30,843 bases of DNA from a virus: the IMG/VR virus record IMGVR_UViG_3300045303_000314, positions 1 to 30,843 of that record; one strand, given 5' to 3'. Below the pieces are notes generated by a model, which was not told the DNA's origin, did no database searches, and was given only the letters and a program-made list of their open reading frames with translations. Made by a program: the position numbers and the translations under genes. This document shows, piece by piece, positions 1 through 30,843 of the stretch (the stretch's first letter is position 1; every line of letters starts with the position of its first letter).

Positions 1-720
1 AACGAGGACGTCGGTCGCCGCGGCTGCACCGTCGCCATGCCCGGCGATCGCGAGGGCAGTGCGGAGCAGTCCGGTCGCTCCGCTCGCATTGTCGCCGTGA
101 CTGGCGAGACTGGCAGCAAGGTTGAGTGAATCGGTATCCGCGGTCGCCGCTGTGCCTTGCCCGGACAGGTAGGCGGCGAGGACGAGCGTGTTCGTGTCGG
201 CGGTGGCAGCATCGCCGTGACCGGCGATGAGGGCGGTGATGACCAGTTGGTTGGTGTCGGCACACGCCGCGTCACCGTGACCGGTGAGCGCAACCGCGCT
301 GCCGCCCTGGGAAGTGACGGTGAGGTCGGCCCGTCCCCCGGACGCCTGATCACCGTGTCCGGCAGCGGCGGCGGTGAGAATGAGCAGGTCGGTGGTCGCA
401 CTAGCAACATCGCCATGACCGCGGAGGTCGGTGGTGATAACCAGCAGGTCGGTATCGGCGGTAGCGGCAGTGCCCTGGCCGCGAAGGTCAGCCGCCAGCT
501 TGAGCAGGTTGGTATCGGCCGCGGCCGCGTCGCCGTGACCGGCGAGCAGAGCGGTGATGACGAGGAGATCGGTGTCAGCGGTTGACGCATCACCGTGGCC
601 GGCGAGAGCGGTAGCAAGGTTGAGTGAGTTGGTGTCGGCGGACGCGGCGTCGCCATGACCGCGGAGGTCGGTGGTAAGACGCAACAGATTGGTGTCCGCG
701 CTGGCGGCAGTGCCCTGGCC
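1..720 (-). repeat. 60-bp tandem repeat array coding for GHGD units
   Basis: In-frame direct repeats with a 60-base period (20 codons), about 11 complete copies plus a partial one at the left edge. Copies are diverged at third positions, so this is an old array under protein-level constraint rather than a fresh duplication. Some adjacent copies alternate between a GHGDAA and a GQGTAA opening. The array continues beyond the window. Confidence 0.85.
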
Positions 721-1488
721 GACGAGCGCGACCGCGGCGCCGACACGCGCTGGCGTGAGAATCTGTATCGGGAGGAGTCGAGGTGTCGGCGGTTGGAGAA
801 CAGTTCGTTGCACCGCGTCCGAGAGCACCGGGACCGCGGAGACTTCCCAGGCGATGCCCCCCAAGTTCGTGCCACCGCCGCCGCCTACGACCGCGGTCGG
901 GTTCGCGTCCGCGGAGGCGATCCATTCGACCTCGGTGCCAATGTTCGGGAGTGTTTGCGCGACGTCGAAGAGTTCGGTCCACCCGGTCTTCGGAGTGGTA
1001 TTCGTCGCACCACCCGACGCCCAGACCGCGAACGAGGCGTTAGCCGGTGACGCGAACGGTTGCAACTGGATGCTGGCCGCCTGCGTGGAGGCGCTGGTTT
1101 GGGTGCCGTACTGGACGATGCCCGGATAGGTGGTTCCCGACGGGAACACCCCGGTCAGTTCGAGGATGCTGCCGTAACACCCGGTCGGGGTCCCCGGAAG
1201 GTTGACAGTCACCGCCCCGGCCGTGGCGGTGGTCGTCGCGACCCACAACTCGACCTTCATCGTCGGGGTCGCGACGCTGTTGAACCCGACGGTCAGAACC
1301 TTGGTGACGTTGGTCAACGAGGTCGCAGTGATCGACGTGGCGTCCCCGACCGGGCCGACCGCCTGGCTGTGGTTGACAACGATGTACGCCACCGCACCGA
1401 CATTGGTGGGGGTGTACGTCCCCGATACATAGCTGCTGAGATCAGCGTTCGACGACCACAAGTTGGTGCTCTGGGCAATACCGATCAT
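1..1488 (-). CDS. tail-fibre/surface protein with 20-residue tandem repeats (3' end off window)
   Basis: The frame is open for 496 codons from the ATG at 1488 to the left edge, so the C-terminus is missing. Residues 1 to about 250 form a beta-rich, Gly/Thr/Val-rich domain resembling the 250-residue protein at 4117-4869 (both end in a 'WEVS/LVELS'-type strand). From about residue 257 the protein becomes a tandem array of units of the type GHGDAASADTNLLxLxxxLA. Twelve starts of a unit are visible, most exactly 20 residues long, one 26, and some reading GQGTAA instead of GHGDAA. No stop interrupts the frame. It lies 8 bases after the previous gene in a structural operon. I infer a virion surface fibre or decoration protein. 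The repeat period and its sharing with the gene at 2335 are observed; the adhesive role is inferred. Confidence 0.72.
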   Translation of the reverse strand, partial: MIGIAQSTNLWSSNADLSSYVSGTYTPTNVGAVAYIVVNHSQAVGPVGDATSITATSLTNVTKVLTVGFNSVATPTMKVELWVATTTATAGAVTVNLPGTPTGCYGSILELTGVFPSGTTYPGIVQYGTQTSASTQAASIQLQPFASPANASFAVWASGGATNTTPKTGWTELFDVAQTLPNIGTEVEWIASADANPTAVVGGGGGTNLGGIAWEVSAVPVLSDAVQRTVLQPPTPRLLPIQILTPARVGAAVALVGQGTAASADTNLLRLTTDLRGHGDAASADTNSLNLATALAGHGDASTADTDLLVITALLAGHGDAAAADTNLLKLAADLRGQGTAATADTDLLVITTDLRGHGDVASATTDLLILTAAAAGHGDQASGGRADLTVTSQGGSAVALTGHGDAACADTNQLVITALIAGHGDAATADTNTLVLAAYLSGQGTAATADTDSLNLAASLASHGDNASGATGLLRTALAIAGHGDGAAAATDVLV

Positions 1489-1987: not shown

Positions 1988-2338
1988 TTAGTAACCGGCG
2001 AGAGCTGATTGGCGTTCCACGAACCAGTCTTTCTGGGCTCCGGTGACCGACGGGTTGTGCGGGTCGAACACACAGTGGCCGTCGAGGGTGAAGTGTTCGC
2101 GGAGCTCGTGGTCGACGAGGTATTGGAGGTTGCAGAACAACCGCTCGAGGACCTGCTGTTCGGTCCAGTCCGGGTTGACGACGAACTGGTCGGCGAGCCC
2201 GACGAACTCTGCATCGGGGATGCGGGAGTCTTCCGGGGTTTCGATGACCCGCAGATGGACAGTCCGGTTGACAGTCCAGAAGTTCCAGCCGGGGAAGTTG
2301 ACCCGCCCGACGAGGTCGTCGAGCTCGCTCGGGATCAT
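1988..2338 (-). CDS. hypothetical protein, 116 aa, structural operon
   Basis: Begins at ATG 2338, overlapping the stop of the 592-residue gene (ATGA), which indicates translational coupling. It is acidic and Trp-rich, with 'FPGWNFWTVNRTVHLRVIE' near residues 15-33 and a His-rich stretch 'DHELREHFTLDGHCVFDPH' near residues 76-94. No TM segment or known motif is recognised. Its frame is clean and its base usage matches its neighbours. Position suggests a small virion or assembly protein; the function is unknown. Confidence 0.55.
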   Translation of the reverse strand: MIPSELDDLVGRVNFPGWNFWTVNRTVHLRVIETPEDSRIPDAEFVGLADQFVVNPDWTEQQVLERLFCNLQYLVDHELREHFTLDGHCVFDPHNPSVTGAQKDWFVERQSALAGY

Positions 2339-4113
2339 TGGCTGTCCACCAGGGTGTCGGTGTGTCCGCGGTCCCAGATGGTGTCCATGTGTCCGCTGTC
2401 GCGTATGGTGAGCGTGAACGCGTCGGGGTCCTGTACTGCCCCGAACAGTGTCGTCGTCGCACTGGCAGCGGCGGCACCGCGGCCGGTGAGGGCGAGAGTG
2501 AGAACGACGAGGCTGGTGACCGCCGAGGCGGCGGTACCGGTACCGGCGAGGGCGGCGGTGAGACGCAGCGCCGCGGTCCCCATGACGGCCGCGTCACCGT
2601 GGCCGGTGAGATCGACTTGGGGACGGACGATGAGGTCGAACGTGCCAGTGTTCGAGTTGTCGCCATGACCGATGAGTTGGGCGATCTGGATCCCGACGCC
2701 GGTCGTGGCGGCATCGCCGTGACCAGCGAGCGCAGCGGCGAGGACCACCCGGGTAGTACCAGTGGCACTGGCGGTGCCTTGGCCGGTGAGGTCAACGATG
2801 CCTTGGGTGTTGATGGCGATCGCCGATGAGGTCGCCGCGTCACCATGTCCGGACAGGTAGGCGCCGAGAACGACTTGGTTGGTGTCGGCGCTGGCCGCAT
2901 CACCGTGACCATCAATGAAAACGAGGTGTTGGGGGACGACGGTGAGATCAACCGTCGCGCTGTCACTGGCATCACCATGACCAGCGAGGAGTGATGCGCC
3001 CCGGAGCAGCCATTTGGTGATCAGGTACGACTCGACCGCGGTGACTTGGTCTGGGCTGAGTGCCTGGTCGTAGATGAGGATCTCGCCGACGAGACCGGTC
3101 GCGGTGGCGGCGACATCGGGTGGGAATGGGATACCACCGATCCCGATGTCGGTGGCGTTGAAGTTGGTGTCGACCGTGAGATTGCCCGGTAACGCGACAC
3201 CGTCGATGTTGGCAGCCCAGAAACCGCCGTCGCGGAGAATGTCGTAGACGAACGCGATGGTCCCGAACCCGGCGTCGGCACCGGTGACCTGCGTACCGTT
3301 GTAGTACGAACCCCCGTCGGCGAGATCGATGACGGACAGACCGGCGGTGTTGTCCCAGTCGGACTGGACCCCGTCGGTAAGAGCGAGGAGCCGGTTGCCG
3401 CCGGTCGCCTGGGCAGCGACGAAGACGGTTATCACCGAATCGTGGAGGGTCAGACCGACACCGGTCAGACCCCGGCCGCTGAGATCGTCGAACGAGATGG
3501 TGTTCTGGTGGCAGATCGTCCGCAACCCGGTCGAGGGCTGCTTAAAGCCGGTGGGTTGGGTGACGTTGTACCCGTTCCCCGACTTGTCGTTCCATTGGAC
3601 GACGCTCGAACCGGTACTCGTGATGATGGTCGAGAGGTCGGTCGCGTCATACCAGGCGAGATAACCGAAGATGGGTGGCCCGACCACCAGCGGTACGCTG
3701 CCGCCCGTCGTGCTGTCGCCGTGGCCGGTGATCGGGAGCGTCAATGGCAGATCGCCTCGACCGCCCGCGGCGGCATCGCCGTGACCGGAGAGGTCGATGT
3801 GCCCGCCGGTGATTCCCAACGGGGGTCGAACCCCGGCGCTCGCAGCACCGGTCCCAACGAGCCGGGCCGTTTCAATGAGAAGGCCAGTGCCACCACTGGT
3901 GGCAGCCCCGTTCCCGTCGACTCGGGCGACAAGGTTCAGCGCCACCGTCGGACTCGAGGCGGCGGCGTTGCCCTGACCGACCGGGCTGATCGCGATGAGC
4001 AGGCTGGTGCCGGTCGCGGCGGCGGTGCCGGTACCGGTAGTCACGATTGGTAGCGAGGTGATGTTGTCGGAGTAGAGGACGTTGGTGGGTTGGGACCGTC
4101 CGAGGCGGGCCAT
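2335..4113 (-). CDS. tail-fibre-like protein: GHGD-type repeats flanking a lectin-like domain
   Basis: 592 residues from ATG 4113, four bases after the previous stop. Residues about 26-148 contain degenerate Gly/Ala repeats (GTGTAAATG, GQGNAAASS, GHGDAAAGG). Residues about 150-372 form an independent domain opening with 'YLAWYDATDL' and 'VVQWNDKSGNGYN', the hallmark of laminin-G/concanavalin-like modules in phage and secreted proteins. Residues about 378-545 return to repeats of 18-24 residues, including GHGDAASADTN, identical to units in the gene at 1-1488. The C-terminus ends in a short charged tail with 'DSGHMDTIWDRGHTDT'. The lectin-like module suggests glycan binding, hence host-surface recognition (inference). 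The repeat-lectin-repeat architecture looks like a domain inserted into a repeat stalk. Confidence 0.7.
   Translation of the reverse strand: MARLGRSQPTNVLYSDNITSLPIVTTGTGTAAATGTSLLIAISPVGQGNAAASSPTVALNLVARVDGNGAATSGGTGLLIETARLVGTGAASAGVRPPLGITGGHIDLSGHGDAAAGGRGDLPLTLPITGHGDSTTGGSVPLVVGPPIFGYLAWYDATDLSTIITSTGSSVVQWNDKSGNGYNVTQPTGFKQPSTGLRTICHQNTISFDDLSGRGLTGVGLTLHDSVITVFVAAQATGGNRLLALTDGVQSDWDNTAGLSVIDLADGGSYYNGTQVTGADAGFGTIAFVYDILRDGGFWAANIDGVALPGNLTVDTNFNATDIGIGGIPFPPDVAATATGLVGEILIYDQALSPDQVTAVESYLITKWLLRGASLLAGHGDASDSATVDLTVVPQHLVFIDGHGDAASADTNQVVLGAYLSGHGDAATSSAIAINTQGIVDLTGQGTASATGTTRVVLAAALAGHGDAATTGVGIQIAQLIGHGDNSNTGTFDLIVRPQVDLTGHGDAAVMGTAALRLTAALAGTGTAASAVTSLVVLTLALTGRGAAAASATTTLFGAVQDPDAFTLTIRDSGHMDTIWDRGHTDTLVDSQ
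2479..2982 (-). repeat. C-terminal GHGD-type repeat block of the 592-aa protein
   Basis: Eight coding repeats of 18-24 residues that open with GHGD, GQGT or GTGT. They are less regular than the block at 1-720, but some units share the same peptide. Confidence 0.75.
3670..4038 (-). repeat. N-terminal Gly/Ala repeat block of the 592-aa protein
   Basis: About six degenerate units opening with GTGT, GQGN, DGNG, GTGA or GHGD, spaced roughly 20 residues apart. They sit upstream of the lectin-like insert in translation order. Confidence 0.6.
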
Positions 4114-4116
4114 CGT

Positions 4117-4869
4117 CTACCAGTTCGAGGCGCGGAACATTGCCGTTGGGGAAATGATCGGCGACGGCGCTGGCGGCGGCGGGACCGTGTCAGACAGTTC
4201 GACCAACATGCACGCACATCTGGCCGCGCCGCTCCATGTCGTCGTGAAGCTCAACCCGCTTGGTGTCAGGTTGTACTGCTGGTCGAGACAGAGCGCGTTC
4301 GCGGTCGTGTTTGCCCGGCCACCACCCAGTTCGGTATATCCGGTGGCCACGGTGTTGATGCCGTTCTGTGATTGTTGGGCCGGGAATCCGACCATCGCGT
4401 TCGTCGCGATCGAGAGCGGATTCGGGAGCGTTGTCGTGAACGCCGCCCCAGTCTGGAGGGTGTCCGAGTTGTTGGTCTGCACCTGGGCCGCACCACCAGT
4501 CCCGACCGTGGTATCGACGCCGGTGTACACGCCGATGTTCCACACACACGAGGTCTGGCTGGCACCCCAGGTGATCGTGATCGCGCCGGCGGAACCAGTC
4601 CCTTGCGCCGCGTACACGACCATCCGTTCGTTCGGGGTAGCGATCACATCCCAGGACACATGCGTGGTGCCCTGCAGGTTCGAAATACATGCCCCCGTAA
4701 TCGTCGGGCTCGCCTCGGACTCGGCTGTACCCACTGTCGTCGCCGATCCGACCACAGCGATGAGCACAAGACTGCCCAACGGTGGGGTGATCGACGCGGT
4801 CGTGAACACGGTCCCGTTGGTGGTGCTTCCACCGAGGGTCGACTGGGCGGAGACAACCGCGATGGTCAT
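4117..4869 (-). CDS. beta-rich structural protein, 250 aa (paralogue of N-domain of the repeat fibre)
   Basis: The start chosen is ATG 4869, which overlaps the stop of the 766-residue gene (ATGA). The longer upstream frame would bury most of that gene's end. The protein has alternating small and hydrophobic residues throughout ('LVLIAVVGSATTVG', 'AGAITITWGAS', 'WNIGVYTGVDTTV') and ends with 'MLVELSD', a Pro-rich stretch and 'PTAMFRASNW'. This layout parallels residues 1-250 of the gene at 1-1488, so the two are probable paralogues. Proteins of this style occur in actinophage structural operons. The virion location is inferred from neighbours. Confidence 0.62.
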   Translation of the reverse strand: MTIAVVSAQSTLGGSTTNGTVFTTASITPPLGSLVLIAVVGSATTVGTAESEASPTITGACISNLQGTTHVSWDVIATPNERMVVYAAQGTGSAGAITITWGASQTSCVWNIGVYTGVDTTVGTGGAAQVQTNNSDTLQTGAAFTTTLPNPLSIATNAMVGFPAQQSQNGINTVATGYTELGGGRANTTANALCLDQQYNLTPSGLSFTTTWSGAARCACMLVELSDTVPPPPAPSPIISPTAMFRASNW

Positions 4870-7166
4870 ACGAGTGCCACTCGGCGAGAGGTTCGCTGCC
4901 CAACAGTCGAGTACACGTCGAGGGTGACGTACAGTCCGGCGGTACCGTTGGCGACCACCGCGGTGCAGTCCATGTACTGGTTCGGGATCCCCGCAGTGCG
5001 GGTCCCACCGTTGAGGTTCATGACCATCTTCGATTCGCCCTGACCGGCGATCGTTGTCCCGTTCGCGGCGAACAACGTCCAGTGGACATGAGCGATACCG
5101 AACGGGTGTTGCGCGGTGAACGTCAACGTGACGGTGTTGAACGCCCGTGATTGTGCGATCGTGCCGACCACGATCGACGAGTTGTCCTGCGGGGTGGTGG
5201 AAGTCGCCGCGAGCATGCCGGCCTGTCGACCGGTCGGGAATGTGTATGGGCTCTGCCCGAACCACTTCGAATGCTGCCCACCGGGGTTACGGGTGACGTT
5301 TTCGGCATCGCCGGGTTGACCGGCCGGCGAGAACTCGTGGCGACGACCACCCATCGACCACTGTCGGGCGAGCTCAAGCTGGCTGTTGTAGTCCGCGACG
5401 CTGAGTTCGGAATCGAAGTAGAACGGGGTCGGATCGCACGACGACCAGGTATAGAGCCGGTAGTCGATGAGTGACATCCAATGGTCCCGCGACGCGTCCG
5501 GGAGTGTCTGGGAGAACTCGGCGAGCATCCCCTGCGTGGACCATTTGATCGCGGTTTGCATCGACGCGCCGGTCCCGCCGGTGTCGACCCGGTAGCCGAG
5601 GTGATGGTCGAGGTATGCGAAACGGCCGGTGTTGTTGAGCTGCGCCCCGGCGCGCATCAGCCCGTAGACGTAACACATCTCGCGGAGCGTCAGGTTCGAG
5701 ACACCGTTCGGCGGGTTGTAGATGTTCGTGTCGTAGAACGTCCGCCCCGGAACCGGGTGGTAGATGAGAATGTTGCAGTCCAGGAAGTTGGTGTAAATCT
5801 GGATGCCCATCTGGTAGCCGCGTAGTTCGAGTTGGGTGCGAACCTGGGCTTCGGTTTTCCCGGCCGGTGGTGCCTGCGCGGTTGGGTCCCACGTCGGGTT
5901 CTCGGTATCGAAATAGAGGCCTTTGCAGTTCAGGAACGCGGCGCCGGCCGCTCGGGTCGCCCACTTGGCGTTCAGCGCGGTCCACGTCGGGTCGTCGAAC
6001 AGAGTGCTCATGTCCGCGGCGAGGCCCCACACCAGGTAGTTCTCGAGCGTCGGGTCAGCCGCGAACGCTTTTTTCAGACCGAGGTTCACTGGGGTTCCGT
6101 ACGCTTGCCCGTTGATCGTCGGGACCCCGAACCCTTCGTAGGCTTGTTGCCAGTCGTAGTTGGAGTTCTGTCCCACTGCGGTCGACCCGAGCATCAACTG
6201 GGTGCCTTGGACACCGACCCCGCCGAGTGTGCCGCCGTAGCCGGCGAATCCCATCGTCGACTTCCACGTCCCGATTTGCGACACGAACAGGGTCGCCGGT
6301 TTGAAGCTGTCGAGGGCGATCATCTTCGAAGCGGGGACCGCGGCGGTGATGTCCGGCAACAAGACGGGGACACCGGTCCCGGTGAATGGTGTCGCCACCA
6401 CCGGCGACGACGGTGCGCCTTCCCCGACCGCGTTGACCGCGGCGACGGTGTACGAGTAGGCGACGTTGTTCGCCACCGCGTTGTCGGTGTACACCGTGGC
6501 AGTCGTTGTCGTATCCGGCGGGTTGAGGATGACACCGTCGCGGCGTAACCGGTAGCTGGTAATCGCCGACCCGTTGTTCGCCGGGACGTTCCATGACAGG
6601 GCGACGGTCCCGTTCCCGGGCACCGCGTTCAGCACCGGCGCGGACGGTGCTCCGGGGGGTGCGACACCGACCGAGATGGTCTCGACCAGATGGTTATTGG
6701 TGCGGTCCGTTTCAGAGAACCGGATGTTGCTGTTCACGTACGCGTCGACCTGATAGGTACCCGCGGTCGCCGTCCAATAGTTCACCCCGACGGTGTTGCT
6801 GCCGTTAGCGACCATCGTGACCGACACACCCGCAGCGATCGCCGCGGTCTGGTTGTCCTCCCAGGTTGTGGTGACCTGCGTGCCGCCCTGGCTGATGGTG
6901 AAGAGGCAGTCGACGATGGTCCCGTCGGGAGTGGGCCCGGCGCCGATGTTCTGCACCACCGCGGAGAACACCACCTGATCGCCGGGGACGGGGGTTGTTG
7001 GTGCCCAAGTGATATCGGTGACGGTCATGTCCGGGAGAGCAGCGAACGTGAGACTCGAGCCTGCTGATGCGCTGCCGTTCCCGTCGATCACGACCGGGCC
7101 CGGCACGAATCCGGTCGGGACGTTGGCGAGGCGGGCGCCTTGTGCCCCCTGCCGAGAGAACGGCAC
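4866..7166 (-). CDS. multidomain tail fibre: CARDB-like, fibronectin III and glycosidase-like region
   Basis: 766 residues from a GTG start at 7166, four bases past the previous stop. Residues about 45-168 look like a CARDB/Ig-like domain ('DITWAPTTPVPGDQVVFSAV', 'ETDRTNNHLVETISV'). Residues about 172-262 are a clear fibronectin type III domain ('PSAPVLNAVPGNGTVALSW', 'ITSYRLRRDG', 'YSYTVAAVNAVGEGAPS'). Residues about 275-640 form a large aromatic-rich globular region ('GLYFDTENPTWDP', 'GIQIYTNFLDCNILIYHP', 'FAYLDHHLGYRVD') with the look of a TIM-barrel glycoside-hydrolase-like fold. The last 100 residues are again Ig-like. I infer a receptor-binding fibre that may bind or cut surface glycan. 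Catalytic residues cannot be assigned by eye, so enzyme activity is a hypothesis. Confidence 0.7.
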   Translation of the reverse strand: MPFSRQGAQGARLANVPTGFVPGPVVIDGNGSASAGSSLTFAALPDMTVTDITWAPTTPVPGDQVVFSAVVQNIGAGPTPDGTIVDCLFTISQGGTQVTTTWEDNQTAAIAAGVSVTMVANGSNTVGVNYWTATAGTYQVDAYVNSNIRFSETDRTNNHLVETISVGVAPPGAPSAPVLNAVPGNGTVALSWNVPANNGSAITSYRLRRDGVILNPPDTTTTATVYTDNAVANNVAYSYTVAAVNAVGEGAPSSPVVATPFTGTGVPVLLPDITAAVPASKMIALDSFKPATLFVSQIGTWKSTMGFAGYGGTLGGVGVQGTQLMLGSTAVGQNSNYDWQQAYEGFGVPTINGQAYGTPVNLGLKKAFAADPTLENYLVWGLAADMSTLFDDPTWTALNAKWATRAAGAAFLNCKGLYFDTENPTWDPTAQAPPAGKTEAQVRTQLELRGYQMGIQIYTNFLDCNILIYHPVPGRTFYDTNIYNPPNGVSNLTLREMCYVYGLMRAGAQLNNTGRFAYLDHHLGYRVDTGGTGASMQTAIKWSTQGMLAEFSQTLPDASRDHWMSLIDYRLYTWSSCDPTPFYFDSELSVADYNSQLELARQWSMGGRRHEFSPAGQPGDAENVTRNPGGQHSKWFGQSPYTFPTGRQAGMLAATSTTPQDNSSIVVGTIAQSRAFNTVTLTFTAQHPFGIAHVHWTLFAANGTTIAGQGESKMVMNLNGGTRTAGIPNQYMDCTAVVANGTAGLYVTLDVYSTVGQRTSRRVALV

Positions 7167-7170
7167 CGGT

Positions 7171-7647
7171 CTAGCAGCGCGAGATGGTCAGGGTTGCCCG
7201 CACGTTGACCGTCGCGGGTGCGGTGCAACGAACCACGAACCCTTCCCCGAGCGCACAGTCCGGTTCGGTACCCAGCGGGTAGTCATAGACGATCACCCCA
7301 CCGTTCGGGGTGAGGAGTTTCTCCTCGAGCACCGAGATGACCGTCGGTTCGTTGCCCGCGGTCCACGTCTTCCCCGCGGTTGCACCGACAGTCAAGACCC
7401 GCCCGACAACTTGGACGGGTGTCACTGATGTCGAGTTCGTTCCCGGTCCGTTCGTTGCCCAGGTGCAGTAGCCGATTTCGACGAGGACCGGGACCGCCGA
7501 GCTCGTGACGCCGTCGAACGCGACTTCGTACTTGCAGAGCACGAGCCCTGAGTTGGCATGCGCCTTCCAGCCCAGGATCGTGCGTGCAGTCGCGGCCGTG
7601 AGCGCGATGGCACCGCCGGTGATCGCCGTGTACCGGGGAGCCGGCAT
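7171..7647 (-). CDS. structural protein, 158 aa
   Basis: Starts at ATG 7647 inside a TGATG junction with the upstream gene; the longer frame upstream is not supported. The N-terminal half carries 'ITGGAIALTAATARTILGWKA', typical of small phage surface or decoration proteins, followed by a beta-rich region with 'VLVEIGYCTWATNGPGTNST' and a C-terminal strand pair ending 'RATLTISRC'. There is no TM segment. It is one of a series of small beta-rich proteins between portal and fibres. A virion component is likely but the exact role is unknown. Confidence 0.6.
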   Translation of the reverse strand: MPAPRYTAITGGAIALTAATARTILGWKAHANSGLVLCKYEVAFDGVTSSAVPVLVEIGYCTWATNGPGTNSTSVTPVQVVGRVLTVGATAGKTWTAGNEPTVISVLEEKLLTPNGGVIVYDYPLGTEPDCALGEGFVVRCTAPATVNVRATLTISRC

Positions 7648-8075
7648 CAATAAACATCCGGGGGATCGCCGAGCTTGATCAGCAGGGTGTTCGCCGCGAA
7701 CGACGCGGTGTCGTTCGTCTGGATCGCTTTCGCGTTCGTGAGCGTCCCCCAGAACCGGACCAGACCGGTCGCCAGGGTGGCGACGGAGAAGAGACCGAAG
7801 TAGGAGACGGTGCCCCATCCGCCGGTCGCCTGGTTGAAGGTGATCGCACCCCCATACGACGTTGAGCTCGGGTCACCACCGCTAGCGGCGGTCCATGTCG
7901 CCGGGGTCAACGTCACCCGCGCATACGCACCCGCGGACGGTTCGGAGAAGTTCCCGGCCGCCTCTGTCGGCAACGTCGTACTGAGCGCGACATACCACGT
8001 GGGGACGGTGTACGCCGTCTTCCCGGTGTAATGGTCGAGCATCTTCATTTCTTCGCTATCGACGAACCCACCCAT
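7647..8075 (-). CDS. phage structural protein, 142 aa ('YVALSTTxPTE' type)
   Basis: Starts at ATG 8075 in a TGATG overlap. The stretches 'TWYVALSTTLPTEAAGN' (about residues 26-42) and 'EPSAGAYARVTLTPATW' belong to a pattern widespread in phage structural regions, usually annotated as tail-fibre-associated or hypothetical structural protein. The remainder ('GGAITFNQATGGWGTVSYFG') fits a beta-sandwich. Neighbours on both sides are virion genes. Confident as a real gene and probably structural; the exact location in the virion is not known. Confidence 0.65.
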   Translation of the reverse strand: MGGFVDSEEMKMLDHYTGKTAYTVPTWYVALSTTLPTEAAGNFSEPSAGAYARVTLTPATWTAASGGDPSSTSYGGAITFNQATGGWGTVSYFGLFSVATLATGLVRFWGTLTNAKAIQTNDTASFAANTLLIKLGDPPDVY

Positions 8076-8812
8076 CAGGTGATCCTTTCGACGTGAGACT
8101 CACTGGAGGTGAGTTCGGTGGTTTTCACATGCCCCGACTCGAGGCGCGTATCGACGAAGATCGGGTAACCGAGTTTGCGGGCCTCGAGGCAGAACCAGAT
8201 GTCCTCACCGGCGACGATGTCGGGGGCGACTTCGTCTTCCCGGAACCAGCGGTACGGATGGGAGGACTGGATTTTCTCGAAGACGTCGCGGTGGACGAGG
8301 AGGCAGTGGCAGCCGGTCGCATCGACCTCGTTCAACCCGAGGACGTAGCTGGTGACTTCGCGGTAGCCGGCCCACTCACCGTCGTCACCCCACTCGATCT
8401 TGTACATCGTCGGGAGAACTTCGATCTGTTGGCGGCCGAACTCGTCGAACACCGGATCGTCGTGCTCGTCTTTCTTGCCGCGCCGTTGATGAGCGAGCGC
8501 GCCGACAATCGGACGCTCGTCCGGGTCGGCGTCGTCGAGGAGCAGGTCGAGCATGTTCGGGGGGAACGTCGCATCACTGTCGAGGATCAACAACCACTCA
8601 GCACGCTCCTGTTCGAGCATGTCGTGAACCATCTGATTTCGCGCCTTGCACAGGTTCGCCCCCGAGAACTGGGGCGCGAAGTTCAGGATGCGTTGCGATC
8701 GCCAGGTGTCGTGGATGAACAGGCCGAACAGGCAGTGGTGGAACTGCTGGGTGATCGTGTCGGGGTGCAGGTAGCCGACGATCACGTTCTGGGTGTTAGC
8801 CATTCCCGACAT
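8075..8812 (-). CDS. glycosyltransferase-like protein (GT-A fold)
   Basis: 245 residues from ATG 8812; ATG 8803 is an alternative. Either start overlaps the end of the portal gene. 'NLCKARNQMVHDMLEQ' near residues 53-68 and 'WLLILDSDATFPPNMLDLLL' near residues 73-92 give the arrangement of GT-A glycosyltransferases, with a DSD (DxD-type) nucleotide-sugar and metal motif. 'DATGCHCLLVHRDVFEKI' and 'EDIWFCLEARKLGYPIFVDT' match the later acceptor-side motifs (the E-D-x-x-F signature) of GT2-like enzymes. No TM segment. Placed between portal and structural genes, it may glycosylate virion proteins such as the Thr/Asp-rich repeats nearby (inference). Another GT-A nucleotidyl-sugar role cannot be excluded. 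Confidence 0.72.
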   Translation of the reverse strand: MSGMANTQNVIVGYLHPDTITQQFHHCLFGLFIHDTWRSQRILNFAPQFSGANLCKARNQMVHDMLEQERAEWLLILDSDATFPPNMLDLLLDDADPDERPIVGALAHQRRGKKDEHDDPVFDEFGRQQIEVLPTMYKIEWGDDGEWAGYREVTSYVLGLNEVDATGCHCLLVHRDVFEKIQSSHPYRWFREDEVAPDIVAGEDIWFCLEARKLGYPIFVDTRLESGHVKTTELTSSESHVERIT

Positions 8813-10136
8813 TCACCGGTGGCTTCTTCGCCCCGTTCGGGGCAGGTGCCGGGAGCGCGGGTGTGGCCTTGGTTTTGTTCGGGGTCTCGTCACCGGGGAC
8901 ACCGGCCGGGGTCTCGCCCGGTTGCGTGTACGCCTGCGCGCCGGGGTAGTAGACCTCGCCGGTGTGGGGAAGGCTGCCGAGCCCTTCACCGGTTTCGACG
9001 ACTTTCGCGACCGCAGCGCCTTCATACCCGGCGCGGACGAGGTTCACGATCGCGGTGGACTTGTCAAGCATGATCTTCGCCGCATCGGCATTGCTATCGC
9101 CGAGGGCGGCGATGCCTTTGGAGTCGTACCAGAGCTCGCAGCCGGCGGGGACGGTCAACAGATGTTCGAGCGTCGCGACTGCGCTACGCCACTGGGGGCG
9201 GGCCCACAGGTCCGCGAAACGGCGCATCGCCTGCTGATAGTTGCTGTACGTGGCGGCCTGCAGGCCTTCTTTGAGCCCGACGACGATGCCAGGGACGCCG
9301 CCGGCGGTGGCGATCCGGTTTTCTCCCGCGGCTTGGATGACATCGAAGTTGATGGCCTGCATGTTCGACCCGATGACCGTCGCGTCCGCCCCATCCTCCA
9401 ACAACATGGAGCGGTAGGCGTTGTCGAGGCCTTCGTGACGGGCTTGGAGCTCGTCCCGCATCCTCGCCCGTGATTCGGGGTCCAACTTCTTGTCGACCTT
9501 GATGAGCAGGTTCGGGGTCGCGGCCCGTTCGAAAAACATCTGCTTATGCCGCGTCATGGCGACGTCGGACTGGATTTCCATCAGGATCGGCGTGAGCCAG
9601 GACATGCCCCGGAAGTTGGCGTACGGGTCAGGGATCGGCGCCCAGTGCGCGACTTCCTCGGCAAGAGCGAACTTGGCGTTCTTGCTTCCCGGACCGTCCG
9701 GCTCGTAGAGATACCCGGCGACGCCGTACCGGTCGGAGACGATCGTCACCCGGTCGGGTCGCCACTGCTGCAGCTCGGTCGGTGACGCCTTGTACGTGTA
9801 GCTGTTCCCACCGAGCGAGGCGTGTTGTTCCATCCGGTTGAGGAGATCACCGAGACGACCATCGACCCACGGGTTCTGCAACAGGTCGAGGGCATGGTTC
9901 GTGAAGATCGCCTTCGTGGCCTTGTTCCGCCACGCCAGCTCGACCTCGGAGAATAGCGACATCCGCGCCAGGATCGTCGCGAACACCACCGAGTTGCCCT
10001 TGTAGCCCGAGCTCACATAGGAGCGGAAGTCGTCTTCGATCTTCTCTTTGGGGCGGGCACCCTGCCACGACTCGAACATATCGACGAGCCCCGACCGTTC
10101 CACCATGGTCGGCGGGCGTTTGAAGATCAGGCTCAT
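8796..10136 (-). CDS. portal protein (HK97-type)
   Basis: 446 residues. The ATG at 10136 is chosen because it overlaps the upstream stop (TGATG) and starts 'MSLIFKRPP', a standard portal beginning; an extra 18 residues upstream in frame are unlikely. Portal-family features include 'FATILARMSLFSEVELAW', 'LLNRMEQHASLGGNSYTYK', 'SWLTPILMEIQSDVAMTRHK' and 'VPGIVVGLKEGLQAATYSNY'. The last 60 residues are Pro/Gly/Ala-rich and disordered. The portal forms the dodecameric ring at the capsid vertex through which the terminase pumps DNA. The terminase lies two small genes upstream, as usual. No maturation protease or major capsid gene follows within the window, which is unusual. Confidence 0.92.
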   Translation of the reverse strand: MSLIFKRPPTMVERSGLVDMFESWQGARPKEKIEDDFRSYVSSGYKGNSVVFATILARMSLFSEVELAWRNKATKAIFTNHALDLLQNPWVDGRLGDLLNRMEQHASLGGNSYTYKASPTELQQWRPDRVTIVSDRYGVAGYLYEPDGPGSKNAKFALAEEVAHWAPIPDPYANFRGMSWLTPILMEIQSDVAMTRHKQMFFERAATPNLLIKVDKKLDPESRARMRDELQARHEGLDNAYRSMLLEDGADATVIGSNMQAINFDVIQAAGENRIATAGGVPGIVVGLKEGLQAATYSNYQQAMRRFADLWARPQWRSAVATLEHLLTVPAGCELWYDSKGIAALGDSNADAAKIMLDKSTAIVNLVRAGYEGAAVAKVVETGEGLGSLPHTGEVYYPGAQAYTQPGETPAGVPGDETPNKTKATPALPAPAPNGAKKPPVNVGNG

Positions 10137-10306
10137 CAGTCCCGCCACCAACACAAGCGCCGCCACCACGGCTCTGGTCCTTCGAACCACACCACGATCT
10201 CGGGGTCAGGTTCGGGGACATATGGCGGGTACGGCTTGGACCGTTCATCCGGAATACCAGGGTCCGGGCCACTGAGCGCGGGATGCGGTCGATCTTCAGG
10301 ATTCAT
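10136..10306 (-). CDS. small acidic Pro/Trp-rich protein, 56 aa
   Basis: From ATG 10306, overlapping the previous stop by ATGA and ending in a TGATG overlap with the portal start, so it is tightly coupled on both sides. The composition is Pro/Glu/Asp-rich with a C-terminal Trp/Arg cluster ('PEPWWRRLCWWRD'). No family is recognised. The double coupling between terminase and portal argues for a real gene, perhaps a head-assembly accessory. Confidence 0.6.
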   Translation of the reverse strand: MNPEDRPHPALSGPDPGIPDERSKPYPPYVPEPDPEIVVWFEGPEPWWRRLCWWRD

Positions 10307-10458
10307 TCGGACCTCGCGTCGACAGTGAGCGCCCCGACGATCAAGAACAGGCCGGCGACGACCACTGCGGCCTGCCAGTAGATGAACGCCGTACCAGCGA
10401 TGACGAACAGGGCGCCGGCGAGGAGACCGAACGCGGTGACGTTCTCGTCCTGGGTCAT
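10303..10458 (-). CDS. small two-TM membrane protein, 51 aa
   Basis: From ATG 10458, in a TGATG overlap with the end of the large terminase gene. Starts 'MTQDENVTAFGLLAGALF' and contains two closely spaced hydrophobic segments (about residues 9-27 and 29-46) separated by 'YWQ', ending in an acidic tail. No family recognised. Membrane insertion is predicted from composition only. Confidence 0.6.
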   Translation of the reverse strand: MTQDENVTAFGLLAGALFVIAGTAFIYWQAAVVVAGLFLIVGALTVDARSE

Positions 10459-11951
10459 CAGAAGAAGCTGATGGCGGGCGCCCACGACTCTTCGGGCCGG
10501 GCCGCTTCGAACAGGGCGAGGACCATGGCGACCGCGGCGTCGATCCGGTCTTTCGACCGTGACTTGGCGAGGGTGAACCCGCGTTCGTTGTACCGGGCGA
10601 CCGCGTTCAACACCTGGGTCTCGAGGACCGGATCACCGTCGTGGGAAATCTCGTGCCGTTTCACCATCTCGTACGCCAACCCCGCCGCCGGGGTCATCCG
10701 TTCGAGCGATTGGGGGACTTCGAGCATGGCGAGCCCCTCATCCACGAGCTGCTGGGCCGGAAGGTCGAAATATCTCGGGTCGTAGGCGATGCCGGCGACG
10801 TCGTACATGGCGTCGAGCTCCCGGATGAACCGCATCGCATCCGACACATCCAACCGGCCATCCGGCACCGGCAACCAAACCTTCGCCTTCACGTGGTACT
10901 TGCCGTTCGGACGCTGCTGGATCCACACGACGGCCGTCGAGTCGTGTTTCAGGCCGATATCGACCCCCACCCACGTCTTCGCCGACGGGACCATCTCGTA
11001 CGGATCCTCGAGCGCCCGCCACAACGCCCGCCCATCCGTCCCCAACCACGATTCGACCCCATCGACCCACTGACCGAGACGGAAAATCCGGAAATGCGCC
11101 TCCGGCGACAGGGCGACGGCCGTGCGGAGGGCATCGATGTTCATGTAGCCCTCGGCGAGAGCCGGGTTCGCCTCGAACCACATCTCCTCGTCATAGATCG
11201 AGCAGTTCTCCGGCGCCGCATACTCGGTGAACAAAAACCCCGGCAGCCGGTCACCCGAGAGCTCCCGGGTCCGCAAATGCCACAGCGCCGAGTGACGGTC
11301 GAAACCGGGGGTACCGATCCCGATCACCAACGAATGTGGCCGCTTCCCGCTCGCCAGGAGCAGCGACGACCAGGATTCGATCGGCATGAACCCGACCTCG
11401 TCGCAAATAGCGATCGACGGGTCCAAACCCTGCAGACCATCCGGGTCGTTCGACTGAGGGAACATCTCGCCACCGTTGTGCGGCGTCCGGACCTTCGTCC
11501 CACCGATCGCCGAATAGATCAACGCCCGCTTCTCGAGCTCCTCACACTCCGAGATCGCGGCCAACGCCACCCCATAGGTGGTCCGGATCGCCTGGTTGAT
11601 CGTCGTCGCCACGATCGGAACCTGCGGAGCACCCGACTCGTCCTCATCGAACAACGCATGCGCGGCGACCGCAGCGAGAAACGTGCTCTTGCCGTTCCCA
11701 CGCGGCAACTCCATCGCCGCCGACATCACACCCGGCGAATACACATCCTCGAGCCATTCCTTCTGAAATTTCGCCAATTTCAGCGGTTTCCCGGCCCCAT
11801 AGCCCTTCGGAGGCACAAAAAACGTCTGAATCCAGCGAATCGCCCGCAAATGACGCTGCTTCACCCGCCACGACGACCACGGCGGAGGAAACCGTTTCGG
11901 ATCCCCCCACGGCGCCCGCTTCGCCGCATTCCCATCAGCCCTGCTCGCCAT
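10458..11951 (-). CDS. terL: terminase large subunit
   Basis: 497 residues from ATG 11951, with a GGAGG ribosome binding site 5 bases upstream. This is the ATP-driven packaging motor and headful/cos nuclease. Walker A is 'PRGNGKST' at residues 83-90 and Walker B is 'IAICDE' at 180-185. An Asn/Thr-rich sensor region follows ('GIGTPGFD', about 211-218). The RNase-H-like nuclease domain starts with 'VGVDIGLKHDS' at about 328-338, continues with 'AYDPRYFD' (about 389-396) and ends with 'DRIDAAVAM' (about 468-476), giving the acidic residues of the active site. Length and order fit the Terminase_1 family. An HNH nuclease lies upstream and the portal downstream. No small terminase gene is seen next to it. 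Confidence 0.96.
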   Translation of the reverse strand: MASRADGNAAKRAPWGDPKRFPPPWSSWRVKQRHLRAIRWIQTFFVPPKGYGAGKPLKLAKFQKEWLEDVYSPGVMSAAMELPRGNGKSTFLAAVAAHALFDEDESGAPQVPIVATTINQAIRTTYGVALAAISECEELEKRALIYSAIGGTKVRTPHNGGEMFPQSNDPDGLQGLDPSIAICDEVGFMPIESWSSLLLASGKRPHSLVIGIGTPGFDRHSALWHLRTRELSGDRLPGFLFTEYAAPENCSIYDEEMWFEANPALAEGYMNIDALRTAVALSPEAHFRIFRLGQWVDGVESWLGTDGRALWRALEDPYEMVPSAKTWVGVDIGLKHDSTAVVWIQQRPNGKYHVKAKVWLPVPDGRLDVSDAMRFIRELDAMYDVAGIAYDPRYFDLPAQQLVDEGLAMLEVPQSLERMTPAAGLAYEMVKRHEISHDGDPVLETQVLNAVARYNERGFTLAKSRSKDRIDAAVAMVLALFEAARPEESWAPAISFF

Positions 11952-14823: not shown

Positions 14824-15494
14824 TGGTTGTTCCCGGTACGGGACGAACTGAAGTCGAGAACCTCTTGCGCCAACCGCTTCGCCGCGACCTCGCAATAACG
14901 CTCCTCAATCTCAATACCGATCGCTTTGCGGCCGAGATTCTTCGCGGCGCGGAGGGTGGTGCCGGAGCCCATGAACGGATCGACGATGCAACCCTGCGTG
15001 ATGTCCACAAGCCATGTCATCAGGTCGAGCGGCTTCGTGTGCGGGTGACCGGTCTCGCTAACAGTTCCCGCCTGGCCGCATCGGCTGTGTAGGACACTGC
15101 TGCGTTCCACGGTGCGCGTGAGCCAATCACCGACCAGGAAAATGGGTTCGGCGTCGCGGCGGAATCCCGTCACTGAGCCAACCAACCCCGAGTCCGGAGG
15201 TTTGTGCCACACCAAGACCTGTTTCGTGTTGATCGGATAGGGCGCGTAGAAGGAGCCGAACACGACTGCCGGACGCGGCGAGATAACGCAGAGAGCCTCG
15301 TCGCGTGCTGCCGTGTCGTGATCGTTCTGAATGCCGTCATGGGCCCTACTTGCCCGTGCGTGGTTGGCGCCCCGCTTCCACGCGATGCCATACGGCGGGT
15401 CGGTCACAGCGACGTCAAAATCAACCGACGGCAGCAACTCGCGGCAGTCTCCGTGGTAGATGACACACGTCCCGTCGTCGTAGTAGGGCTCCAT
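14820..15494 (-). CDS. DNA methyltransferase (N4/N6, beta-class order)
   Basis: 224 residues from ATG 15494. The catalytic motif IV 'TDPPYG' is near residues 31-36 and the S-adenosylmethionine motif I 'DPFMGSGTT' near residues 172-180, with motif order IV before I as in beta-class N6-adenine or N4-cytosine enzymes. 'HPHTKPLDLMTWLV' precedes motif I as is usual, and 'GIEIEERYCEVAAKRL' follows it. It acts on phage DNA, probably to evade host restriction. No cognate nuclease lies beside it, so it is an orphan enzyme. Its C-terminal S-R-T-G-N-N-Q is encoded by the second type of junction box, and it couples to the small-gene array by an ATGA overlap. Confidence 0.93.
   Translation of the reverse strand: MEPYYDDGTCVIYHGDCRELLPSVDFDVAVTDPPYGIAWKRGANHARASRAHDGIQNDHDTAARDEALCVISPRPAVVFGSFYAPYPINTKQVLVWHKPPDSGLVGSVTGFRRDAEPIFLVGDWLTRTVERSSVLHSRCGQAGTVSETGHPHTKPLDLMTWLVDITQGCIVDPFMGSGTTLRAAKNLGRKAIGIEIEERYCEVAAKRLAQEVLDFSSSRTGNNQ
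14821..14850 (-). repeat. type-2 junction box, copy 1
   Basis: Minus-strand GTTCGTCCCGTACCGGGAAC then AACCAATGAGC. A near-identical copy lies at 16450-16479 (one or two differences in about 30 bases). It contains the end of the methyltransferase gene and the ATG of the next gene, and shares the CAAC-AATGA core with the eight-copy module. Confidence 0.85.
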
Positions 15495-15546
15495 CAGGCG
15501 TTGCTATCTCTGACGCACCCATAACTGTCACACCCCCATGAGAAAA

Positions 15547-15813
15547 TCAGGTCATGAACGCGGCGCTTCCGTCCTCCGAACCCTCGTCGTCGGTGCTGAC
15601 TTCGACCAGCCGGTAGATCGGGACTCCGCCCTCCCGCGCCGGGCCTGGGTACGCGACCCAACCTTCGTCCACGATGGTCGAGGGGTACGCCGCACCCTTG
15701 ACCCGTTCGAGCCGGAACGTGGTCTCGTCGCTCTCGGCCGCGATCGGCTGCGCCAGTCTCCTCATGGCTTCCTCGAACGGCAGGTCGATCTTCACGGGCA
15801 TGTCGCGGTCCAT
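15547..15813 (-). CDS. hypothetical protein, 88 aa
   Basis: ATG 15813 with a GAGGAGCC ribosome binding site that overlaps the previous stop. 'MPVKIDLPFEEAMRRLAQPI' opens the protein; then 'VKGAAYPSTIVDEGWVAYPG' and an acidic end. No TM segment or known motif; probably a small globular alpha/beta protein. About 50 bases without a gene separate it from the methyltransferase. Confidence 0.55.
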   Translation of the reverse strand: MDRDMPVKIDLPFEEAMRRLAQPIAAESDETTFRLERVKGAAYPSTIVDEGWVAYPGPAREGGVPIYRLVEVSTDDEGSEDGSAAFMT

Positions 15814-15819
15814 GGCTCC

Positions 15820-16053
15820 TCATTCTGTCACGGCCCCCGCACGAACGAGAGCCTCCGCCGCGGTCGCCCGCTGGTACCAGTTGTCGCAAGCGACCCTGAG
15901 TGCCGCTATCTCAGCCCGATATCCGACGACCGCTTCACGGAGTGCTGCCAGTTCGTCCTGGTCCGTCTCCAACTCGGCAATACGGGCGTCCAGTTCGTCG
16001 GCGCGGTTCTTCTGGAACGCCGCAGCGACCTCCATACGCGTGAAGTCGGTCAC
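15820..16053 (-). CDS. coiled-coil hypothetical protein, 77 aa
   Basis: GTG start at 16053 in a GTGA overlap. Residues 15-70 are a continuous heptad helix ('ADELDARIAELETDQDELAA', 'EIAALRVACDNWYQRATAAE'). It resembles the small coiled-coil proteins abundant in actinophage early regions; function unknown. Confidence 0.6.
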   Translation of the reverse strand: MTDFTRMEVAAAFQKNRADELDARIAELETDQDELAALREAVVGYRAEIAALRVACDNWYQRATAAEALVRAGAVTE

Positions 16054-16205
16054 GATTCCGCCCGCGGGTGGAATCGCTCCATGGACTGCACGTCACCCAA
16101 CTCCGTGAGCCGGTCGCGCATCCACTCGACCGCATCGCAGAGCGCGAGCACGGTCGGCGTCCGGTCGGCTTCACGGATCGCTGACAGGTCTGCGTACTCG
16201 TTCAT
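16050..16205 (-). CDS. hypothetical protein, 51 aa
   Basis: ATG 16205 in a TGATG overlap with the zinc-ribbon gene; the end overlaps the next GTG start. Helical and acidic ('MNEYADLSAIREADRTPTVL', 'DAVEWMRDRLTELGDV'). No family recognised; the coupling on both sides supports it being real. Confidence 0.55.
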   Translation of the reverse strand: MNEYADLSAIREADRTPTVLALCDAVEWMRDRLTELGDVQSMERFHPRAES

Positions 16206-16396
16206 CAGTCCTCCATCAGTTCACGCAACGGCACGCACATGCCGCCACCAAGATCGACCCAGCTCTCGTCGAGGTCGGCGGTGTCTTCTTCCGTGTAGTC
16301 GTCCGAGCAGACGGCACACGCGCGCCATGCCTGTGAGTCGCCGTCGCGCCAGTCGGGGTGTTGGCGCGTTCCATTGCACGCCGTGCATACGCTCAC
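16205..16396 (-). CDS. zinc-ribbon protein, 63 aa
   Basis: GTG start at 16396 with a strong AAAGGAGG site lying inside the preceding 19-codon ORF. Two CxxC knuckles ('VCTACNGTRQH' at residues 3-13 and 'ACAVCSDDY' near 27-35) form a likely zinc site, followed by an acidic region and 'GGGMCVPLRELMED'. Probably a small nucleic-acid- or protein-binding factor; function unknown. Confidence 0.62.
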   Translation of the reverse strand: MSVCTACNGTRQHPDWRDGDSQAWRACAVCSDDYTEEDTADLDESWVDLGGGMCVPLRELMED

Positions 16397-16452
16397 GATT
16401 CCTCCTTTGGGTGCGTCACAGGTAGCAGCGCCATCTCAAAGAGTCGGCTCAT
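16393..16452 (-). CDS. possible 19-codon leader peptide
   Basis: ATG 16452 at the second copy of the type-2 junction box, ending in a GTGA overlap with the zinc-ribbon gene. Reads MSRLFEMALLPVTHPKEES; its last codons contain the strong AAGGAGG site of the next gene. It may be a coupling leader or the remnant of a longer cassette; its first residues match the MSRR remnant at the other end of the array. Confidence 0.38.
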   Translation of the reverse strand: MSRLFEMALLPVTHPKEES

Positions 16453-16479
16453 TGGTTGTTCCCGGTACGAGACGAACCG
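16450..16479 (-). repeat. type-2 junction box, copy 2
   Basis: Near-identical to the box at 14821-14850. Here it lies in the gap after the 249-residue gene, so it does not encode that protein's tail, although it still supplies the start region of the next ORF. Confidence 0.85.
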
Positions 16480-16483
16480 AACA

Positions 16484-17233
16484 TCAGACCGACACCGGAA
16501 ACTCGACTGACGCCCCATCGAGCACCGCCCGACACCCCGGCCCATGACCCACCGGACGCACACATCGATAATCCGCGCCGAGGTGCGTGTAGATGTTCGG
16601 GCAACGTGGCAGCTCATCCGGTTCGGTGAGTTTCTCCTCGAGCCGACGTTGCTCCACCACCACCGCGAGCGCACGGAACACCGGATCCCGCGCCAACCAC
16701 TGACCCCCCGCCGTCGGCCCCGAACTATGACGCAAATCAATCGCCTCCCTGGGTGGGAGTTGCCCGTAATGGACCTGGACGTCACGACACCACTTACACA
16801 ACCGGAACGACGGACGACGCTCATCAACCTTCTCGAAATGGCCGAACCTCGCGCACGACACACACCCCGGCAGAGGACCATCAGCCGGCAACTTCGACTC
16901 ATGCACCACCTCAGCCTGACGGTTCACGATCCGCTCGAGCGTGTGCGCCGCCGACTTCACCACGCCAACGAGCCGGCCGAGCTCGTGATAGTCGAGTTCA
17001 GCCTGACGGCATACGGCGTCGCGTTCTTTGCGTTCATCCGCCTCCGACGGAGTCGAACTACCACCCCGATCACCATCGCGAGGAAGACGGCCACCCGCAC
17101 GATCCTCAGCCCGGCTCAATGCCAGGTCGATGCGGGTTGTGTGGCCCGGGTCGGCTTGGGTACCCGTCGACGTTCTCGCTACGACACGAGCAATGACGTC
17201 GCAGGCCTCGTTCAGATCCGCCGACGGTTTCAA
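16484..17233 (-). CDS. zinc-finger hypothetical protein, 249 aa
   Basis: ATG 17233 in an ATGA overlap. The N-terminal half is charged and helical ('RIDLALSRAEDRAGG', 'ERKERDAVCRQAELDYHELG'). A zinc ribbon follows: 'GCVSCARFGHFEKVD' near residue 126 pairs with 'LCKWCRDVQVHYGQLPP' near residue 146, a pattern seen in actinophage early proteins of unknown role. A second Cys/His cluster, 'RCVRPVGHGPGC', lies near the C-terminus and resembles the GHxGPH motif of two array proteins. It lies next to the replication genes; function unknown. Confidence 0.65.
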   Translation of the reverse strand: MKPSADLNEACDVIARVVARTSTGTQADPGHTTRIDLALSRAEDRAGGRLPRDGDRGGSSTPSEADERKERDAVCRQAELDYHELGRLVGVVKSAAHTLERIVNRQAEVVHESKLPADGPLPGCVSCARFGHFEKVDERRPSFRLCKWCRDVQVHYGQLPPREAIDLRHSSGPTAGGQWLARDPVFRALAVVVEQRRLEEKLTEPDELPRCPNIYTHLGADYRCVRPVGHGPGCRAVLDGASVEFPVSV

Positions 17234-30104: not shown

Positions 30105-30843
30105 ACGATCGCCCGAGACGAGATTTTCGGGCCACCCGTCCGGTTCAACGTGGAGGCGACGACCTCGGTGATGATCTTCCCATCCAGGACAAGTTGCACG
30201 ACAATCGGACCTCCGCCACCGGCGTTACTCGCAGGCGAAGAAGACCCTGAGGCACTAGCCCGCATCATGCTCTTCGAGACGACGAACTCGCCGGGGGTCA
30301 GCATCGCCGGCACCGAATCCGAGTTCCCGGTACCCGGCACCAGTCCACCTTCGGAGAAGCCGAGCGCCCCACCTACCCCCTGAAGGATGCCGCCAAGATT
30401 GTGCGGAATGGAACCGATCGCATCCGCCACAGCGTGTGCCGTTCCGATGATGTCGTTCAACATACCGAGGATCGGTGACAGCGCTCCCGATATTGCACCC
30501 GCTACCGCGCCCGCGACGGCTACGACCCCGTTCCAGATCGCGGACCACGCTGCCGCGAAGAACGAGAGCGTCGAGATCACCCCGGCAAGTCCACCTTTGA
30601 TGTAGTCGAACGCACCCGAGATGAACGACGCGGCGTTCGCCGCGTACATCTGCACCGCGTTCCAGATGTTCTGCCAGTTGGTGGCGAACACATACGCCGC
30701 GGCAGCCAGCACCGCGATCACTGCGACAATCACAAGAATCGGCCAGGTCGCGGCGATGGTCGCGACGGCCGCGGTGATCATCGCGGCGACGTAGGCGGCG
30801 ACTGCGGTGACGAGAAACACCCCGAGGGCGACACCGAGGATAA
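30101..30843 (-). CDS. tape measure protein, C-terminal part (5' end off window)
   Basis: Frame open from the right edge (about 247 codons). Several Ala/Val/Ile-rich hydrophobic stretches ('ILVIVAVIAVLAAAAYVF') are followed by 'NIWNAVQMYAANAASFISGA', typical of tape measures. The conserved C-terminal motif 'GGLVPGTGNSDSVPAMLTPG' then EFVVSKS, near the end, is diagnostic. The tape measure sets tail length and passes with the DNA through the host membrane. The start codon and most of the protein are outside the window. Confidence 0.88.
   Translation of the reverse strand, partial: ILGVALGVFLVTAVAAYVAAMITAAVATIAATWPILVIVAVIAVLAAAAYVFATNWQNIWNAVQMYAANAASFISGAFDYIKGGLAGVISTLSFFAAAWSAIWNGVVAVAGAVAGAISGALSPILGMLNDIIGTAHAVADAIGSIPHNLGGILQGVGGALGFSEGGLVPGTGNSDSVPAMLTPGEFVVSKSMMRASASGSSSPASNAGGGGPIVVQLVLDGKIITEVVASTLNRTGGPKISSRAIV

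Follow-up and report, generated by a model that had tools for sequence, protein, structure and literature searches.

A modular fibre-type gene near the portal of a probable actinobacteriophage, with a central domain that may act on glycans

Does the long protein encoded near the portal gene of this virus carry a new carbohydrate-active domain, or is it a phage fibre of an ordinary kind? The question was raised by the original prediction for the locus, which described a fibre with a large glycosidase-like region and proposed that it could be a new type of capsule or cell-wall depolymerase. The window analysed here is the whole 30,843-base stretch of the IMG/VR record IMGVR_UViG_3300045303_000314, which is classed as linear by IMG/VR, with no end repeats found, a class that often denotes a fragment.

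Gene order and the fibre-type cassette

The genes of the window lie on the minus strand in the order of a siphovirus fragment, from a tape-measure-type end through tail-type proteins and DNA metabolism to TerL, the portal and the fibre region (Table 1). A related portal was found in 217 phage records, mostly from phages of Mycobacterium (159) and Gordonia (43), and among the matches listed the closest portals (41.5-42.5% identity) came from Gordonia phages. Related portals also occurred on 18 genome contigs, of which 17 were actinobacterial by title and one was a Gemmatimonadetes MAG. The host is likely to be an actinobacterium.

Table 1. Features of the window, with positions, strand and the evidence for each
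Feature	Position	Strand	Evidence
Tape-measure-type end	30101-30841	-	Tail-type proteins below, then DNA-metabolism genes
TerL	10458-11951	-	Family searches of the record
Portal protein	8796-10190	-	Pfam PF04860, E 1.4e-30
GT2-like protein	8075-8812	-	phrog_34859 glycosyltransferase, E 1.3e-11; Pfam below cut-off; homologues in relatives
gp80-family protein (podophage GP4 fiber I)	7647-8075	-	Pfam PF23140, E 6.6e-27; PDB 8jou_a, E 1.7e-16
Small gene upstream of the fibre (start at 7650 inferred from frame)	7171-7650	-	37% identity over ~144 residues to a gene of L060 and L062
Fibre ORF, 766 aa, GTG start, stop in GTATGA	4866-7166	-	Open frame over 766 codons, GC3
N-terminal piece, residues 1-44, probable anchor (inferred)	7035-7166	-	Residues 4-36 match an ORF of L002
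CARDB, residues 45-160	6687-7034	-	Pfam PF07705, 23.9 bits against a cut-off of 22.7, E 5.1e-5
Fibronectin type III, residues 181-258	6393-6626	-	Pfam PF00041, 26.7 bits against a cut-off of 25
Central aromatic-rich region, residues 265-665, candidate (beta/alpha)8 hydrolase	5172-6374	-	Composition, reading by eye
D420-T-E422 in KGLYFDTENP, candidate acidic site	5901-5909	-	Read from the sequence; function inferred only
C-terminal beta-sandwich, residues 655-766, Ig/FN3-like	4869-5204	-	Structure model, Foldseek, weak Big_7
Next gene, ATG overlapping the fibre stop, no family in Pfam or PHROGs	4117-4869	-	ORF reading
Virion structural protein with ~20-residue GHGDA-type repeats	2335-4113	-	phrog_10356, E 4.2e-15

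The fibre ORF is a real gene, tightly packed in an operon, since its frame is open throughout, its third-position GC is like that of its neighbours and the gene spacing is tight. Four bases separate the stop of the upstream gene from the fibre start, and at the other end the fibre stop shares bases with the ATG of the gene that follows. The third-position GC of the central region was 0.83, against 0.74-0.84 for the neighbouring genes and the rest of the ORF, and the true frame of this region is free of stops.

The gene had been described as next to the portal; it is indeed near it, but the description is loose, as three genes (GT2-like, gp80 family and 7171-7650) lie between them. The gp80-family gene, the second after the portal, belongs to a family (PF23140) whose name in Pfam derives from podophage GP4 and its 'fiber I' protein. 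A profile of five gp80 homologues matched the PDB chain 8jou_a ('virion-associated phage protein'), which we take to come from the GP4 particle, whereas the single gp80 sequence or three near-identical ones gave no match to this chain. The family was found in 9 phage records, and five of these regions were opened: in four of them the gp80 gene adjoins, or lies no more than three genes from, genes annotated as tail fibre, tail protein, tail tube or baseplate, and in the fifth the gp80 gene itself carries the annotation head protein and has a virion structural protein as its neighbour. The product of 2335-4113, on the other side of the fibre gene, looked LamG-like by eye only and had no match in Pfam. 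As judged from these sequence matches, the gp80-family and phrog_10356 proteins support a fibre-type cassette around the gene.

The same gene order bears on whether the product could instead decorate the capsid, its Ig-like domains sticking the head to surfaces, rather than form a receptor-binding fibre. The gene follows the portal and, to judge from the gene order of the relative L003 (labels assigned by eye), precedes protease- and capsid-type genes, which is a position in the head module, and the tape-measure and tail-type genes lie elsewhere in the record. The gp80-family neighbour is nevertheless of fibre type and keeps the company of fibre, tail or baseplate genes in most of the opened regions, and we consider capsid decoration improbable.

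Flanking domains and the central region

The CARDB-like and fibronectin III domains of the original prediction were both recovered above the Pfam cut-offs, and residues 170-257 of the fibre matched fn3-type chains of the PDB. Ig-like ends had been proposed as well, and one such end was partly confirmed: residues 655-766, modelled without an alignment, gave a seven-strand beta-sandwich with a pLDDT of 63.5 and a pTM of 0.58 (moderate confidence). A Foldseek search with this model returned a range of beta-sandwiches that included Ig- and FN3-type chains, all weak and none at E ≤ 0.001, and the Pfam match of this end to Big_7 was below threshold (E 0.1).

The N-terminal piece was compared with the relative L002, whose TerL is 91% identical and whose contig ends shortly into an ORF that has its first residues in common with the fibre. 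Residues 4-36 have 45.7% identity to this ORF, found at the same place, a match that is weak by E-value and stronger by position. The E-value in tblastn on 86 loci went from 0.65 with the full query to 0.077 with an N-terminal query; when a query of 45 residues was searched on 102 loci, the match reached E 0.003. A GHGDA-type repeat suspected by eye at the fibre N terminus was rejected, the best places of the repeat profile being elsewhere and 532 of 1000 shuffles scoring as high; on the N-terminal piece of L002, 28 of 1000 shuffles scored as high.

The CARDB, FN3 and Ig-like domains, together with the gp80-family and phrog_10356 neighbours, support the fibre reading. The product is likely to be a modular virion appendage, whose place on the virion is judged from gene order only.

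The central region is rich in aromatic residues, as had been stated: F, W and Y made up 48 of the 403 residues from 263 to 665 (11.9%), whereas the four remaining segments of the ORF had 6.2-7.9%. No family was reported at E ≤ 10 when residues 265-665 were searched against Pfam, NCBIfam and PHROGs, or when four overlapping pieces of them were searched against Pfam, with the HMMER filters discarding most matches above about E 0.1. No beta-helix, esterase or described hydrolase family was found in the fibre with Pfam and PHROGs, or in the central region with NCBIfam. Searches of the PDB with the central region returned hepatocyte growth factor chains only (E 1.1 and 1.6), and tblastn in phages and plasmids returned nothing.

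Several other searches for relatives gave similar results. Exact-peptide scans, which detect close relatives only, returned two stretches from viral contigs and ten from genome contigs, none of them a relative. Scanning the viral contigs three times with degenerate motifs gave 0, 73 and 63 stretches, with no relative on checking; most of the 73 stretches were one recurring protein on contigs of about 4 kb. When the fibre was searched with tblastn and phmmer on the 86 relative loci, the N-terminal match to L002 was the only one, and the central region was found in none of 40 viral and phage records. Among bacterial genomes, a search of 11 gave matches at E ≤ 1 in three (four matches, E 0.1 to 0.4). 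With residues 372-665 only, four matches at E ≤ 0.01 were obtained in 394 genomes of the class of G007 and three in 298 genomes of the phylum of G003; these were short, several had stops or antisense-looking frames, and on reading no recognisable relative was among them. The same residues gave no match at E ≤ 0.001 in 396 genomes of the phylum of G004. These bulk sets covered Actinomycetota and Gemmatimonadota, with some genomes drawn more than once, and it is possible that relatives of the central region occur in other phyla.

A further set, 395 genomes of the class of G004, gave four matches at E ≤ 0.01, and all four fell on residues 343-360 (YEGFGVPTINGQAYGTPV), a stretch that resembles the GT4 motif. 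Such matches would be expected if the central region were a fragment of a glycosyltransferase. The GT4 motif is E-x7-E, however, and its second glutamate is an asparagine in the fibre; the matching part is shorter than 100 residues and no Pfam glycosyltransferase was found at E ≤ 10. We therefore rejected the GT4 identity, which is very improbable. The central domain is the only new part of the fibre, which is otherwise ordinary in kind.

To the original prediction this region looked like a TIM-barrel hydrolase, and structure prediction was proposed as a check. No family, PDB structure or relative was matched that would place the fold, and AlphaFold2 run on the single sequence gave a pLDDT of 29.7 and no fold, because there were no relatives for an alignment; a pLDDT of about 30 obtained in this way neither shows nor refutes a TIM barrel. 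With neither a match nor a fold model, the barrel reading rests on the reading of the sequence. By eye, strand-like stretches (CKGLYFDTE, CNILIYHP, RFAYLDHH and MSLIDYRLY) alternate with helix-like ones, and a crude Chou-Fasman pass agreed only in part with these strands. The acidic residues of the region include D420, E422, D520, D568, D585, E587 and E611, whose relation to strand ends depends on a fold. The alternation of strands and helices and a D-T-E at a strand-like end would suit a barrel glycosidase, and we treat this as a lead.

One described family was compared directly. A GH26 profile, built from 25 of 30 fetched GH26-family loci, scored -3.7 bits on the central region, with 667 of 1000 shuffles as high, and hhalign gave an E-value of 0.54; GH26 was rejected for this region.

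That no catalytic family was matched in the searches is what a non-enzymatic fibre would give, in which the central domain binds a receptor or a glycan, possibly with a barrel ancestry, and has no catalysis. CARDB, FN3 and Ig-like domains usually have an adhesive or spacer role, which fits such a fibre too. A length of about 400 residues, the many aromatics and the D-T-E motif would nevertheless be more typical of a carbohydrate-active enzyme, and we regard the non-enzymatic fibre as a serious possibility that falls short of being probable.

Comparison with relatives

The relative L003 has a portal that is 75% identical and a TerL that is only 35% identical. It keeps the order portal, GT and gp80 while the next genes differ, which indicates a variable slot of the sort that fibres occupy. 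Its protease- and capsid-type genes come after these differing genes, and in Gordonia phage Eyre the protease comes directly after the portal. The fibre thus appears, by comparison and from a record that ends before the protease and capsid genes, to be part of a variable cassette placed within the head module.

ORFs of at least 330 amino acids within 9 kb downstream of the portal were collected from the relatives, which gave 73 after removal of portal-, TerL-, capsid- and protease-like ORFs and of eight duplicate loci. We scanned 17 of the 73 and three ORFs from outside this list with Pfam, 20 in all, as a sample rather than a census. LamG domains were found in L069 and L098; L042 had a CBM_4_9 and L043 a fibre repeat; the proteins of L071 and L101 were beta-helix or pectate-lyase-like; L012 and L053 gave glycosyltransferase matches and L026 a Filamin match below threshold. 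The other eleven had no Pfam match at the limits used. The ORFs of L042 and L071 come directly after a tape-measure-like ORF (by eye) and that of L101 lies upstream of the portal, so these three are not in the slot of the fibre.

The more distant relative L060 (portal 47% identical) has a homologue of gene 7171-7650 and, about 1.4 kb past it, encodes a 651-aa protein at 15078-17030. The terminal domain of this protein scored 20.1 bits with the GH26 profile, with none of 1000 shuffles as high, and ranked first of 365 ORFs; hhalign gave an E-value of 2e-4 and a probability of 46.5. The domain has no name in Pfam, and searches of the PDB, of phages and plasmids and of 148 genomes gave no match to it. 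The L060 cassette is, like that of the fibre, of virion type, and it lies downstream of a capsid-type gene with the 7171-7650 homologue near. Because of this GH26-like domain close to the homologue, the comparison suggests that cassettes of the fibre's type may carry glycosidase-type domains.

The L060 domain is GH26-like, whereas the central domain of the fibre has no GH26 match, and we do not count a link between the two. Their similarity had an E-value of 8e-4 at first; the domain was then the best of 365 ORFs, at E 0.17, with 3 of 5000 shuffles as high, but the similarity proved unreliable in the reverse control, at 140 of 5000 shuffles with composition adjustment and 152 and 2 of 5000 in two other settings (without composition adjustment, 2 of 5000). 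The two compared by hhalign gave an E-value of 0.36.

Proposed reading and known systems

We give a probability of roughly 0.4 to a modular fibre of the neck or head in which CARDB and FN3 spacers precede a central domain that acts on or binds glycans and an Ig-like cap, the likeliest identity of the central domain being a (beta/alpha)8 glycoside hydrolase of a new family. The short N-terminal piece would dock this fibre on the virion, the CARDB and FN3 domains would space it out, the central domain of about 400 residues would cut or bind a host surface polysaccharide, with D420 and E422 as candidate acidic residues if it is a hydrolase, and the C-terminal Ig-like domain would cap the fibre. 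A glycan-directed central domain is plausible, and the (beta/alpha)8 hydrolase, whose barrel fold, catalysis and substrate we infer, is the leading single candidate for it, as yet unproven. A bolder claim, which we think unlikely, is that the central 400 or so residues represent a glycoside hydrolase family seen here for the first time and borne by a fibre of the head or neck, in a portal-capsid cassette where actinobacterial phages swap unrelated glycan-active domains, such as the GH26-like one of L060.

To our knowledge, few phage depolymerases are known for actinobacterial envelope glycans. Hydrolase activity of the central domain would, if real, mean a further enzyme family directed at these glycans, with the enzyme on the neck or head and not at the tail tip. 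At present, the protein is an ordinary phage fibre with one domain that matches no family searched, and fibres with unassigned domains are common.

Like depolymerase tail fibres and spikes, the protein has adhesive domains around a large domain, here possibly a carbohydrate-active one; unlike them, it matched no beta-helix, esterase or described hydrolase family. Relatives of the fibre protein were not found in phage records by sequence, and the comparison with other fibres is one of architecture and gene order. Cyanophage A-1(L) is described as having five neck fibres on a pentadecameric ring, which anchors bead-chain fibres with a larger bead at the end, and its account reports that no binding of the distal carbohydrate-binding module to the host was seen (PMC10966104). 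In a preprint on phage DEV, the N-terminal domains of the fibres are described as forming a collar of 15 subunits, 'like in the podophage GP4' (PMC10925440). The window shares with the GP4 fibres a homologue of fiber I, the gp80-family protein, which is encoded second after the portal and is followed downstream by long modular proteins.

Repeat proteins and a GH26-like domain

Repeats of about 20 residues, of the type LAGHGDAASADTNLLxL, occur in runs in two regions of the window and in one of the relative locus L003. In a motif count over all three regions the spacing between matches was mostly 20, and a Pfam scan of these proteins returned no family. The C-terminal domain of a 651-aa protein of L060, a more distant phage locus, was matched by a GH26 profile built in this analysis and was not reported by a Pfam search of that protein.

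Features of the window and of two relative loci
Feature	Location	Strand	Remarks
Repeat run	window 1-1488	-	10 motif matches
Repeat run	window 2335-4113	-	12 motif matches
Repeat run	L003 5605-7842	+	22 motif matches
651-aa phage protein	L060 15078-17030	+	N-terminal repeats (by eye); GH26-like C-terminal domain (by profile)
GT4-like stretch YEGFGVPTINGQAYGTPV	window 6087-6140	-	fibre residues 343-360
GT2-like gene	window 8075-8812	-	homologues in relative loci

Glycosyltransferase-like sequences

The fibre stretch YEGFGVPTINGQAYGTPV closely resembles a GT4 glycosyltransferase motif, probably by chance. Homologues of the GT2-like gene were found (E <= 0.01) in 38 of the 102 relative loci, some of which overlap or duplicate each other; most of these homologues lie downstream of the portal gene, at a distance of a few kb.
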